This document shows positions 2,540-6,928 of a DNA stretch of 32,630 bases, piece by piece (positions within the stretch are counted from its first letter, which is position 1; each line of letters opens with the position of its first letter). The notes beneath the pieces are model-generated. The model saw only the letters and a program-made list of their open reading frames with translations, was not told the DNA's origin and searched no databases. The stretch is from positions 1 to 32,630 of the IMG/VR virus record IMGVR_UViG_3300045996_000216, one strand, 5' to 3'. Source of the stretch: a virus. A program made the position numbers and the translations under genes.

Positions 2540-2675
2540 AGACACCAAGCCTGCCAAGCCTCGCCTGTGGCTGTATCGAGGTTGGTGGAGGTGTGGGAGA
2601 TTGGCTGAGTCCTCCATGACTTGGGCCTGTGGACCTACCCCGCGTGCTGCTTATGAGAACTGGAGCAGGAAGTGA
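2523..2675 (+). CDS. short conserved-type phage protein (50 aa), Trp-rich
   Basis: ATG at 2523 in a different frame from the previous gene, ending TGA 2673-2675. It encodes MVSLLEDTKPAKPRLWLYRG, then WWRCGRLAESSMTWACGPTP, then RAAYENWSRK. The pattern RLWLYRGWWRC...G-x-TP-x-AY-x-NW recurs, in my recollection, in very small proteins beside ninB in lambdoid and Burkholderia phages. The next gene starts inside its last codons (AGTGA). Function unknown. Confidence 0.6.
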   Translation: MVSLLEDTKPAKPRLWLYRGWWRCGRLAESSMTWACGPTPRAAYENWSRK

Positions 2676-2986
2676 GCGCAGTCATGGAACGCCCCCGCCG
2701 GACGCTAGACCAGAACGCGAAGTTCCATGTCGTGATCGAGGAAATCGCGGAGCAAGCCTCGCACCTTGGATCGAAGTGGGACGCGGAGAGCTGGAAGCGC
2801 CTGTTGCTGGACGCCTTCGCTAAAGAGACGAAGCGACCAAGGGGAAAGGTCATCCCCAACCTGACCGGGGATGGAGTGGTGGAGATTGGATTGCAGTCCC
2901 GCAAGTTCACCAAGCAGGACGCTAGTGAGTTTGTGGAGTGGCTGCACGCCTGGGCGGCGACTAACGGGGTGGAGTTGAGCCAGTAA
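2672..2986 (+). CDS. ninB: NinB (Orf-family) recombination protein
   Basis: 104 residues. Family features are RRTLDQNAKFHVVIEEIAEQ (about 9-28), the central SKWDAESWKRLLLDAF, GDGVVEIGLQSRKFTK and DASEFVEWLHAWAATNGVEL. NinB of lambda (Orf) is a recombination mediator that binds single-stranded DNA and can replace RecFOR. At 104 aa this copy is shorter than lambda's roughly 146 aa, with a shortened middle. The start is either GTG 2672 (coupled to the upstream stop, GGAG six bases before) or ATG 2684; I chose GTG for the coupling. It is followed directly by ninG, the usual nin-region pairing. Confidence 0.82.
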   Translation: MSAVMERPRRTLDQNAKFHVVIEEIAEQASHLGSKWDAESWKRLLLDAFAKETKRPRGKVIPNLTGDGVVEIGLQSRKFTKQDASEFVEWLHAWAATNGVELSQ

Positions 2987-3567
2987 TGCTCCGTCGCACC
3001 CGCTGCCCGATGTGCAAGGCAAAGCTCCTAGAGGGGCAAAGGATTCACCCTGATTGCATCGATGGATGGGCCGAAAGACAAGCCGCCAAAGCCAAAGCCG
3101 CCGCCATCAAGGCCGACGCCAAAAGACGAAAGGTGGACAGGGCGACGGACAGAGCAAGGCGCAGGGCGCTGGAGACGATTCCAGAACTGATTAAGGCAGC
3201 ACAGAAGGAATTCAATGCGTACATCCGACAAAGAGACAAAGGCCAGCCCTGCATCTGCTGCGGACGATCTCTTAATGATGCGGGGGTTGGCGGGGCTTTT
3301 GACTGCGGACATTACAGAAGTGTTGGATCTGCTTCGCACCTCAGATTCAACGAGCTTAACGCCAACGGCCAGACAAAACATTGCAACCGCTATGGAGCTG
3401 GTCGGGCGGTTGACTATCGAATTGGTCTTATTGCGCGAGTCGGTCTTGAAGCAGTTGAAGCCCTAGAGAACGACAACACCCCCCACAAGTGGACCGCCGA
3501 CGAACTTAGGTCTATCCGCGAAACCTACAAGCAAAAGCGCAAACAGCTAGAGAAGGAACAAGAGTGA
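2986..3567 (+). CDS. ninG: NinG-family recombination protein
   Basis: 193 aa, near the usual family length of about 200. It has an N-terminal zinc ribbon (C7, C10 with H21, C24), a long basic Ala/Lys helix (about residues 33-65), then ELIKAAQKEFNAYIRQRDKG. A second metal site follows in CICCGRSL and GGAFDCGHYRS, an HNH/recombination-nuclease-like core, and then NELNANGQTKHCNRYGAG. NinG (lambda Rap) resolves branched recombination intermediates; whether this homologue has the same activity is inference. The ATG overlaps the ninB stop (TAATG) and the 3' end overlaps the next GTG start. Confidence 0.9.
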   Translation: MLRRTRCPMCKAKLLEGQRIHPDCIDGWAERQAAKAKAAAIKADAKRRKVDRATDRARRRALETIPELIKAAQKEFNAYIRQRDKGQPCICCGRSLNDAGVGGAFDCGHYRSVGSASHLRFNELNANGQTKHCNRYGAGRAVDYRIGLIARVGLEAVEALENDNTPHKWTADELRSIRETYKQKRKQLEKEQE

Positions 3568-4195: not shown

Positions 4196-4711
4196 ATGAG
4201 AATCACGGAACGTTACGCCCAAGCGGTCAACTCGGACAACCTCACGGTGGACGAGCGGACGACCTTCTCAGATACGGATGTTCTGGGAGCATCTGGGCTG
4301 GCAGCAAAGAACGGGCACGCCCTAGGAATCGCCCTGACCCGCCTGTTTGCCGATGGCAAGCCCGGCCCGGTGGTGGTGGAGCTGACGGAGATGGCCTTTA
4401 AGCGCTCCCGCACCCTTCGGCTGAAGTTCTCCCGTGTGGAGGCCGAAGACTTGTCTAAGGCTGTTTTGGCATATTACCGGCACGGCATCTGCTTGCCCTG
4501 CGGAGGGACGGGGTACACGGTCATCAAGGACACCCCGATCCAAGGGGATGAGTGCTCCCACTGCCTAGCCACGGGGAAACTGAACTTCGACCGCCAATTC
4601 CCCCATGAAACGCTCGACCTGGCCCGGTGGTTGTCACAGGAGATAGACCGGGCACAGGCTGCGGCAGGTAGTGCGGCTATGGCGATGCTGGCTCCCCGGA
4701 TGGAGCTTTGA
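4196..4711 (+). CDS. zinc-binding phage regulator, candidate Q-type late antiterminator
   Basis: 171 aa. ATG 4196 follows GAGAGGGGCAGAGGA. The diagnostic part is a pair of Cys motifs, CLPCGGTGY (about residues 100-108) and CSHCLATGK (about 120-128). Each has the CxxC-x-G/T-x-G shape of a DnaJ-like zinc finger, as also seen in one class of phage Q antiterminators. The upstream helical region contains RTLRLKFSRVEAEDLSKAVL. It is the last gene of the early operon and is followed by a promoter-like site, a long non-coding leader and a terminator, the exact position of Q in lambdoid phages. The late-regulator role is therefore inferred mostly from position; a zinc-binding protein of other function is possible. 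Confidence 0.5.
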   Translation: MRITERYAQAVNSDNLTVDERTTFSDTDVLGASGLAAKNGHALGIALTRLFADGKPGPVVVELTEMAFKRSRTLRLKFSRVEAEDLSKAVLAYYRHGICLPCGGTGYTVIKDTPIQGDECSHCLATGKLNFDRQFPHETLDLARWLSQEIDRAQAAAGSAAMAMLAPRMEL

Positions 4712-4726
4712 CCTGACGAACGGTAC

Positions 4727-4756
4727 TTGGCGTAGGGGAATTATTTAGTGTAGGAT
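4727..4756 (+). promoter_or_regulatory. candidate late promoter (pR'-like)
   Basis: TTGGCG (4727-4732) and TAGGAT (4751-4756) with an 18-base spacer sit right after the last early gene. Transcription from here would start near 4763 and produce a leader of about 435 bases before the first late start codon. The hexamers are only moderate matches to sigma-70; the location is the main support. Confidence 0.3.
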
Positions 4757-4866
4757 GCGCGGACCTACAAAGTGACGGGCGTTCCGTCGAAAATAATTGG
4801 GGCCTGTCAGTGGGACAGGTGCCTTTAAAAGTCGTGTGTCCCCGGATCGGTACATGGGATAGCTAG

Positions 4867-4943
4867 CCCGACAACTAAACGACTGATGATCGCCTGAGAT
4901 GGCGTGAAACTCGGAAGAGTCTCGTGGAGCCCTCCAAGTCGGG
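4867..4943 (+). ncRNA. hammerhead self-cleaving ribozyme, type I (stem I open)
   Basis: The conserved core is complete. CTGATGA (4883-4889, C3-A9) is followed by stem II CGCC/GGCG (4891-4894, 4901-4904) with loop TGAGAT, then GAA (4906-4908, G12-A14). Stem III ACTC/GAGT (4909-4912, 4917-4920) is capped by a GGAA tetraloop. C17 is at 4921, giving a GTC cleavage triplet. Stem I begins TCGT (4922-4925) pairing with ACGA (4879-4882), continues through an asymmetric internal loop and closes with GTCGGG (4938-4943) on CCCGAC (4867-4872). The base of stem II has T4890 opposite T4905 where a G-C pair is usual. Cleavage is predicted between 4921 and 4922, leaving a 2',3'-cyclic phosphate upstream and a 5'-OH on the late mRNA. 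The six-base loop II facing a stem I internal loop is the usual arrangement for the activating loop-loop contact. Activity itself is inference. Confidence 0.85.
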
Positions 4944-5161
4944 GAATAACTGAGGGCATATGCCGATCGGACAGCCGGGAAAGACCGGCACCAACACAAA
5001 GGGATCGCTTCGGCGGGCCTTTCGCTTTTCTGGCGCCCGCCACCCCAGCACGGGGGAAGCTCGTTAGACACCATTAGGGGGACGCCGCTCGCGCAGCACA
5101 GTCCTGCCACCTCGTCACAGAGCTTCCCCGGCATATTGCCGTTCCACTATCGGAACTTCAC

Positions 5162-5188
5162 AGCCCTCCTAGCGAGGGCTTTTTATTT
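5162..5188 (+). terminator. intrinsic terminator at the end of the late leader
   Basis: AGCCCTC (5162-5168), loop CTAGC, GAGGGCT (5174-5180), then TTTTATTT. It lies between the structured leader and the first late start codon, so late expression must pass it. This is the arrangement of lambda tR', read through under Q control. Its last bases merge into the GGAG ribosome site of the tailspike gene. Confidence 0.85.
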
Positions 5189-5197
5189 GGAGCCTCC

Positions 5198-6928
5198 TTG
5201 TCTGGTCTGCGAGTTGGTCCGATTGGAGAGATTACCTACGACCCTGGGTCGGGGTCGGATCGCTCGGTTCAGGACAAACTGCGCTCCATCGGGATTACCC
5301 CCGGCGACGAGGGAGCGGTTGGGGATGGATCGACCAACGACAGGGTCGCGCTTCTAGCCGCCAACTCTGGAAATGGTCGGGTGCATGGGGATGAGGGCAA
5401 GACTTACCGCATCTCGGCTGATACAACGATTGGGGTGTTCATCGCCAACGGTGCTGTCATTGAGGTTGATTCTGGGCAGACGCTGACCGTAGATCAGGTG
5501 ATTTCAGGCAACGATGTCTGTTTCACGGGTGCGGGGACGGTGGTTATCACCTCCCACTTCTACAACCTGGCATGGTTTGAGGGTGCCACGGCAAACGCGA
5601 AGTTCGACTTCCTCAAGAAGGGGTTGGAGATTAATCGCCAGTGGACGCTGTATATCCCCACCCCCAAGCCGTCCGACCCTGCGGCGATTGAGATTTCAGG
5701 GTTTGGTGAGTTGGCATGGGATCAAACGGCCCCACTGATCTTTGGCGACCCGGAGAACAACTGCACCATTCTGATGGAAGGGTTTCTGATCGCTACGGCG
5801 AGCATGACGGCCCAGATTCAGTTTGGGAACATCGTTGACGAAGAGAAAACCGAGAGCATTCGTGCTCCGTTGGGCTTGAAGCTGTATGGGGATGCGCTGG
5901 CTACGTATGGCCTTTACATCCCGCTGGCCGCGCACATAGACATCCCGCTGATCGAGGCGCACAAGCACCAATCCTCGTTCTGTATCGAGTCTGGGCTGGT
6001 CGCTGCGCTTGCTGTGAACGACATCAGCATTGGCAAGATTTACGGCGCGTATCTCACGGGTTCGATGGTGGACATCATGGGCAAGGCCGGGGTTCTGGCC
6101 GACTCCATCCACATCAAAGAGATTCACTTTGACGGGGCCACGCCCAGCACGGTTAACTCCATCGTGCGGGTCAGGGGTGTTGTGCGAGGTCTGCAGATCG
6201 ACATGATCCGCGACGAGGCCAGCGTCGGGAATGGGTTGTATGACGTTGACACGGCGATTGTCGATGTGAACACGATTACAGACGCTACCCGTGCCCCTGA
6301 AGGCGTGAAGATTGGGACGATCTTCTGGAACATCTCAACCGGCAGTCCCCCAATTGCGCTGAAGGTCCGCAACACAGTGGGAGGGACTGAGCCTGATCCG
6401 AAGAACATCATTTGTGATGACTTCATCTCGCGCACCAACCCATCAGGACATGCGTTTGACCTGACGGTGGGCAGTAATCACCGCGTCAGAGGCCGTGACA
6501 ACGGCAAGACAGTTAACGTAGGTGCAACCTGCACCGACATCTACCTGGACAACTTCCGTATCACGGACTGCACCATCGACAACGCTGCAAGCAACGTGGT
6601 GGTAAACGGCAGTAATCAGCGCAGGGTGGCTATCACCGCTGCAGCAGCAATCTCCATTCCTGTTCCCTCTCATCTGCAGGAGGGGGTCATGCTGAACATG
6701 ACCGCGATGGATGCTGGCGGGACCATGCGTTACCTACAGGCTGCGCTTGAGTGTTCCTCCGGGGCGTCGGCAGTCAAGGTGGCCGGATCGGCAGATGTGG
6801 ACGTGACCACCGGAGCGCTGACTGGCTCCACCGGGACCGCCAGCCGAATCACTGTATCGGCAGACAACGGGTTGATCTACATCGAGAACCGCCTTGCTGG
6901 CACCGAGACGGTTCGCATTGAATTCTGA
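5198..6928 (+). CDS. tailspike / tail fibre with right-handed beta-helix domain
   Basis: 576 aa starting at TTG 5198, with GGAG at 5189-5192 and no in-frame ATG nearby. After a short N-terminal part (VGPIGEITYDPGSGSDRSVQ) comes GDEGAVGDGSTNDRVAL, the motif that opens pectate-lyase-like beta-helix domains of phage spikes. A long stretch of short beta repeats follows (about residues 60-480), then a C-terminal trimerisation-like part ending ENRLAGTETVRIEF. Such proteins bind and often cleave capsule or LPS. No catalytic residues can be assigned by eye. It is the first late gene, upstream of terminase, and not in the usual place after the tail genes. The N-terminal adaptor is short, so attachment to the virion may need the nozzle protein. 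Confidence 0.78.
   Translation: MSGLRVGPIGEITYDPGSGSDRSVQDKLRSIGITPGDEGAVGDGSTNDRVALLAANSGNGRVHGDEGKTYRISADTTIGVFIANGAVIEVDSGQTLTVDQVISGNDVCFTGAGTVVITSHFYNLAWFEGATANAKFDFLKKGLEINRQWTLYIPTPKPSDPAAIEISGFGELAWDQTAPLIFGDPENNCTILMEGFLIATASMTAQIQFGNIVDEEKTESIRAPLGLKLYGDALATYGLYIPLAAHIDIPLIEAHKHQSSFCIESGLVAALAVNDISIGKIYGAYLTGSMVDIMGKAGVLADSIHIKEIHFDGATPSTVNSIVRVRGVVRGLQIDMIRDEASVGNGLYDVDTAIVDVNTITDATRAPEGVKIGTIFWNISTGSPPIALKVRNTVGGTEPDPKNIICDDFISRTNPSGHAFDLTVGSNHRVRGRDNGKTVNVGATCTDIYLDNFRITDCTIDNAASNVVVNGSNQRRVAITAAAAISIPVPSHLQEGVMLNMTAMDAGGTMRYLQAALECSSGASAVKVAGSADVDVTTGALTGSTGTASRITVSADNGLIYIENRLAGTETVRIEF

Follow-up and report, generated by a model that had tools for sequence, protein, structure and literature searches.

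The window, a 32,630-nt stretch of viral DNA, carries on its plus strand a larger conserved RNA element in which a hammerhead is embedded. Comparative evidence indicates that this hammerhead is real, and self-cleavage between 4921 and 4922 is predicted with high confidence. Overall, the best explanation is probably that of a type I hammerhead within a phage RNA family that may make and shield defined RNA ends. Sequence comparison supports the structure, the hammerhead core, the rule at the cleavage site, the permuted and hammerhead-free forms, the late-leader and tRNA contexts and the exchange of the element as a block.

The conserved element and its hammerhead

Two covariance models were built with the window left out. 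The first (R1), which had a poor automatic structure, gave a sole match in the window (93.4 bits, E 6e-23); the second (R2), built from 21 relatives with a structure set by hand, confirmed this result with a sole match at the same position (114.7 bits, E 1.1e-30). Unrelated control loci, many of which were picked for containing the seed 15-mer, reached at most 16.2 bits, and hammerhead-free and permuted members of the family scored 40-70 bits. The covariance check was thus positive with models from true relatives and negative with the Rfam hammerhead model. That is, Rfam 15 contained no hammerhead match in the window at gathering level and none in 4500-5300 even at E values up to 10, and permissive thresholds yielded nothing beyond chance-level matches in the window, in one hammerhead-free member and in the leader of one related contig (L183). 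A loose hammerhead core pattern matched the window twice, against 1.19 matches expected by chance. Rfam and this pattern alone would make a weak case; the significance arises because the models from relatives match. Chance resemblance was therefore rejected, though the loose pattern alone is non-significant, and the hammerhead identity advanced in the original prediction is strongly backed by these models and by core rules that hold across the family. Two overlapping minus-strand open reading frames (4745-5134 and 4825-5043) were set aside because the plus-strand structure covaries.

All bases previously assigned to the core, to stems I-III and to the T4890/T4905 mismatch were confirmed at their positions. 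The extent given earlier, 4867-4943, was correct in its bases, but the conserved unit is larger (approximately 4830-4975). Similarly, CCCGAC and GTCGGG, first drawn as an outer part of stem I, do pair, but they form one of four scaffold helices (helix C, Table 1). The window element has three helices round the core with an open stem I, CUGANGA followed by GAA, the A15.1-U16.1 pair and a base other than G at H17, as in type I hammerheads. The usual G-C at 10.1-11.1 is not present, and the U-U in its place is the weakest point of the type I assignment. This mismatch falls within the range known to be tolerated: U-U has been found in active natural hammerheads and was the best tolerated mismatch (PMC3088659). 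We regard the hammerhead as type I with one unusual but precedented pair.

Table 1. Features of the element and of the neighboring genes in the window.
Feature	Position	Strand	Remarks
NinB and NinG genes, lambdoid nin region	2672-3567	+	Pfam NinB 4.9e-23, NinG 1.7e-45
Q-position gene, Cys-rich	4196-4711	+	assigned by position only
Whole conserved RNA element (scaffold and embedded hammerhead)	4830-4975	+	only R1/R2 match in the window
Half 1 motif N-CGUGUG (family N-CGUGGG)	4832-4838	+	conserved in 75 members
Helix A, 5' strand GTCCC	4838-4842	+	pairs with GGGAT 4856-4860; covaries in family
Helix B, 5' strand, inside loop of A	4845-4851	+	pseudoknot with GCCGATC 4962-4968; covaries
Helix A, 3' strand	4856-4860	+	
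Helix C, 5' strand CCCGAC	4867-4872	+	6/6 paired in all 75 unpermuted members
Stem I, 5' strand ACGA	4879-4882	+	pairs with TCGT 4922-4925
Hammerhead core C3-A9, CUGAUGA	4883-4889	+	CUGANGA in 60/61 family hammerheads
Stem II, CGCC 4891-4894 / GGCG 4901-4904, loop UGAGAU	4890-4905	+	
Position 10.1-11.1, base of stem II	T4890 opposite T4905	+	U-U
Hammerhead core GAA (12-14)	4906-4908	+	61/61 in family
Stem III, ACUC 4909-4912 / GAGU 4917-4920, loop GGAA	4909-4920	+	
A15.1-U16.1 pair	A4909-U4920	+	C17 = C4921
Predicted cleavage, C17/U	4921/4922	+	family H17: C 46, A 13, U 2, G 0
Half 2 motif N-CGUGGAG	4922-4929	+	first 4 nt = stem I, 3' strand
Helix D, 5' strand GCCCUC	4929-4934	+	pseudoknot with 4952-4957
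Helix C, 3' strand GUCGGG	4938-4943	+	
Invariant linker GAAUAACU	4944-4951	+	identical in 75/75 unpermuted members, partly by construction: AATAACTG belonged to the search seed
Helix D, 3' strand GAGGGC	4952-4957	+	
Helix B, 3' strand GCCGAUC	4962-4968	+	
Intrinsic-terminator-like hairpin, between element and tailspike gene	5162-5189	+	1 found vs 0.5 expected in shuffles

The RNA family, its core rules and its symmetry

When 4600-5300 was searched sensitively at the DNA level against 50,697 phage records, 101 bases of it matched the Arthrobacter phages Constance and Karkharias at 77% identity (E 3e-12), and the rest of the query had no match. On alignment, stem I differs by paired changes, N7 varies and a G-C replaces the U-U of the window. 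Further members were gathered from IMG/VR, using a conserved 15-mer and a looser pattern, and from GTDB contigs. The search seeds contain GGGGAATAACTG, and its conservation is therefore partly by construction. We obtained 75 distinct copies in the unpermuted order, of which 61 contain a hammerhead and 14 lack it; a reversed-order scan found a circularly permuted form in 22 contigs. Both forms come mostly from phage, the hosts being Proteobacteria, Actinobacteria and Cyanobacteria; contigs labelled Clostridia also contributed. Four members (L142, L143, L140 and L144) came from metagenome-assembled genomes labelled archaeon, Gemmatimonadales, Clostridia and Lachnospiraceae, respectively, and are probably phage sequence within these bins. 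Plasmids gave no match to the element, and six phages with related terminases did not carry it. Among 289 genomes sampled from the class of one member's genome (L141), the sole match was the source genome itself, indicating that the element is rare in chromosomes. E. coli phage PD205 (L148:2487-2567, 17.4 bits with R1) has a divergent hammerhead whose scaffold is simplified, perhaps a one-half relative.

The 61 hammerheads follow common rules. N7 of CUGANGA takes all four bases, and U16.1 is kept in 61/61. The lack of any G at H17 has a chance of approximately 2e-8 assuming equal bases and independent members, though the members are related. Position 10.1-11.1 is A-A in 23 members, G-C in 18, U-U in 15, C-A in three and another combination in two, and the U-U members keep the remaining core. 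Most permuted members, in turn, have the classic G-C; a permuted copy of the E. coli type scored 24.7 bits (E 0.00057) with the Rfam type I model, for which the cut-off is 34 bits. An earlier survey discarded 10.1-11.1 mismatches by default (PMC3088659), and this filter may explain why the family was overlooked. The UGAGAU sequence of loop II recurs in the family, and other members have short tetraloops there; the scaffold may replace the tertiary contact between stems I and II. Five members (L071, L083, L089, L111 and L140) have a long stem III with an extra insert (TTATGAATGTCAA in several), which is possibly another nested RNA.

Mycobacterium phage Gaia (L094, L149) has the core TTGATAA, in which C3 is changed to U3 together with G8 to A8. 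A contact between positions 3 and 8 is known from hammerhead structure, and the double change could preserve it. The Gaia core is a natural test of this contact.

The scaffold consists of four helices, which in their family forms are A (GUUCCC/GGGAAC), B, in which the loop of A pairs with the 3' end, C (CCCGGC/GCCGGG) and D (GUCCUC/GAGGAC), with the 5' strand of D inside C and its 3' strand outside. B and D are pseudoknots, and the three hammerhead stems bring the total to seven helices. In an alignment of 21 sequences without the window, 98.7% of the cells of 37 pairs were paired, and compensatory changes occurred in 27 of these pairs, with every helix represented. The covariation score was 0.706, compared with 0.176 ± 0.015 for shuffled and 0.04-0.10 for slid alignments.

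The fold divides into two similar halves. Half 1 comprises N-CGUGGG, hairpin A and tail C, half 2 comprises N-CGUGGA, hairpin D and tail B', and each hairpin loop pairs with the tail of the opposite half. The position of the hammerhead is constant, directly before half 2. Each CGUGG motif is preceded by a base N, and in 69/75 members both motifs have the same one (shuffle mean 29.9, maximum 47). This count is inflated by related sequences, yet 41/44 agreed once the set was thinned; three of the six mismatches resemble parsing slips. The same identity was found in 13/14 hammerhead-free members and in all ten permuted members inspected. In the hammerhead-free members, a short loop links CCCGGCA to CGUGGAG, and the remainder of the scaffold, including both CGUGG motifs, is kept; the scaffold therefore has a function independent of the hammerhead. 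The permuted order is hammerhead, half 2, linker hairpin and half 1, indicating that the folded pieces are conserved and not the strand order. In one permuted contig (L166) the element has no hammerhead and follows a tRNA-like 3' end.

Genomic context and exchange of the block

The window runs from NinB and NinG through the Q-position gene, the element and the terminator-like hairpin to tailspike, terminase and portal. That is, the element lies where a lambda-type late leader lies, past the nin genes and the Q position and ahead of the late genes. The Q-type regulator claimed upstream is correct as to position, but its protein had no match in PHROGs, Pfam or NCBIfam. A sigma-70 consensus promoter was looked for and none was found. 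Positions 5052-5132, past the element and ahead of the tailspike gene, contain another long stem (GGGGAAGCTC/GAGCTTCCCC) that encloses an inner structure; 4975-5195 folds with a z of -3.5 and is conserved in three related contigs (L183-L185).

The permuted element is present in 15 of 5,426 complete E. coli genomes, and no annotated feature lies under it in any of the 15. In two E. coli prophages examined, the permuted copy lies between antitermination gene Q and the holin gene; a third E. coli copy is antisense, between terminase and portal. At several permuted loci the element is, by eye, directly 3' of a terminator-like hairpin. A terminase lies downstream of the element in three tested loci. 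Elsewhere, the EhYP copy lies between the capsid and tail tube genes, and that of Pectobacterium phage Pappous adjoins tRNA-Met. A tRNA gene was found within 500 nt in 23/75 members, on the same strand every time, this count being a lower bound as some loci are short. Hammerhead-free members lay near a tRNA gene more often than hammerhead-bearing ones (9/14 vs 14/61; Fisher p 0.008, with members taken as independent). The late-operon leader claimed in the original prediction is therefore supported for the window by NinB/NinG, the Q-position gene, the Q-holin copies of two E. coli prophages and the terminase genes downstream in some other members, but approximately one third of the members lie near tRNA genes instead.

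The site itself has been exchanged as a block, since alternative contents occupy it in relatives of the window and in E. coli. The three related contigs have the Q-position gene at 96-98% identity and leader DNA on both sides of the block that is 91-94% identical in L184 and L185 and 77-79% identical in L183. The block 4826-4989 is missing from all three, other sequence of 62 or approximately 250 nt stands in its place, and R2 found no element in them. The replacement sequences appear structured (L184:3629-3690 and L183:1510-1759); that of L183 had no Rfam match. In E. coli A28 (L173, approximately 1565-1665), a docking stem (GGAAAGAGCA/TGCTCTTTCC) encloses a tRNA-like insert with a GGTTCGA T-arm; the same stem encloses the element in other E. 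coli prophages. Loss of the core in related phages had been named beforehand as evidence against the hammerhead. The element is indeed absent from the three contigs, but because the whole block was exchanged, not because the core decayed.

Possible roles and relation to known systems

We propose that the hammerhead, standing between the halves, cuts just before half 2, and that the inter-half helices B and C hold the cleaved pieces together. A nascent late transcript would thereby become a leader and a late mRNA; held by B and C, both new ends would stay packed in one compact knot. That the pieces stay together is likely. The unit would produce RNA ends at defined positions and shield them within long phage transcripts that are not translated, such as late leaders and tRNA arrays, and would act as an exchangeable cassette; end-making and shielding as its main role is put forward tentatively. 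To our knowledge, E. coli has no 5'-to-3' exonuclease; therefore, shielding of 5' ends there would need to act on RNase E or other routes. The matching base N in both halves is not accounted for by end shielding and counts against it, as do the members in structural operons rather than leaders (EhYP, Pappous and the antisense E. coli copy). We consider it evenly balanced whether the family is a distinct class of phage non-coding RNA, i.e., a pseudo-symmetric, domain-swapped double pseudoknot that forms a particle independent of strand order, with a hammerhead, or the processing of neighboring tRNA, as its maturation step and a stable late-infection RNA as its product.

Alternatively, the hammerhead may do no more than separate the leader from the late mRNA, as already proposed for prophages, with the scaffold as its tertiary stabilizer. 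Stem I does run continuously into helix C, prophage hammerheads flank genes and have a proposed part in processing phage RNA, and pseudoknots often stabilize hammerheads (PMC3088659). However, 14/75 members keep the scaffold without a hammerhead and hence have a use for it, and we consider this explanation somewhat unlikely. A mobile RNA cassette, possibly spread via circular RNA, appears quite unlikely. Opening of such a circle at differing points would account for the permuted copies, and both orders do exist; a 94.8% identical copy is shared by an E. coli prophage and an Enterobacter autographivirus, the left flanks differ among E. coli copies, and the block is exchanged among relatives of the window. 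On the other hand, ordinary recombination could achieve the block swap, hammerhead-free copies would be unable to self-process, and no target duplication was seen by eye. It is decidedly improbable that the scaffold is a cis-acting, put-like antitermination RNA that binds RNA polymerase for long untranslated transcripts: late leaders and tRNA arrays do contain it, the phages that carry it infect distant hosts and several members lie directly after a terminator-like hairpin, but the hairpin of the window lies downstream of the element and permutation is not obviously compatible with such a role. That the U-U pair marks the window hammerhead as a decayed, inactive relic, as the failure of Rfam to recognize it might suggest, is highly improbable given the U-U of active natural hammerheads (PMC3088659) and the 15/61 members that share it with the rest of the core intact.

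The family bears on a wider question, as what hammerheads do in prokaryotes has been described as open (PMC6155905). A ribozyme with a fixed, conserved partner RNA makes this role testable, because the scaffold occurs in hammerhead-bearing, hammerhead-free and permuted forms, the last of which is found in prophages of E. coli, a host readily accessible to genetics. The element also marks late-gene leaders and tRNA-gene regions in phages of very different bacteria and adds a strongly covarying, pseudoknotted RNA family that is missing from Rfam.

Phage hammerheads and their proposed role in mRNA processing have been published (PMC3088659, PMC6155905), as have hammerheads flanking prophage genes (PMC3088659). 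The novelty of placement claimed at the outset thus does not extend to hammerheads beside prophage genes; it holds for the composite RNA within the open literature, since no description of the approximately 145-nt scaffold was found in Rfam 15 or the openly searchable literature. With type I hammerheads (RF00163), the element shares the three-stem core, CUGANGA, GAA, A15.1-U16.1, an NUH site and an open stem I; it differs in the U-U at 10.1-11.1, with A-A, U-U or C-A in most of the family, in copies that fall below the Rfam cut-off and in being embedded in a larger conserved scaffold. The hammerheads of Perreault et al. 2011 (PMC3088659), such as those of PaP3 and Bcep176, likewise lie in phage intergenic DNA with a suggested part in transcript processing, but the covariance models found no element in either phage, and the hammerhead-like core of PaP3 (near base 44106, minus strand) lies outside this scaffold. 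HRIMA motifs are not the same, being metatranscriptome RNAs of another kind. Theta ribozymes (PMC10879173) are also self-cleaving RNAs associated with phage tRNA genes; they have the HDV fold, whereas the scaffold has, by inspection, no HDV-type P3. An HDV-like fold was rejected, as only approximately 6 nt separate B and A' in the alignment and Rfam gave no HDV match. GOLLD and ROOL (PMC12286853) are likewise conserved phage non-coding RNAs known near tRNA genes, but they are far larger and there is no Rfam match between the families. Finally, the permuted two-piece tmRNA (as cited in PMC10085705) resembles the element in its permuted gene order and its two cooperating pieces; its sequence is unrelated, and here the cut is predicted to be made by a built-in ribozyme.
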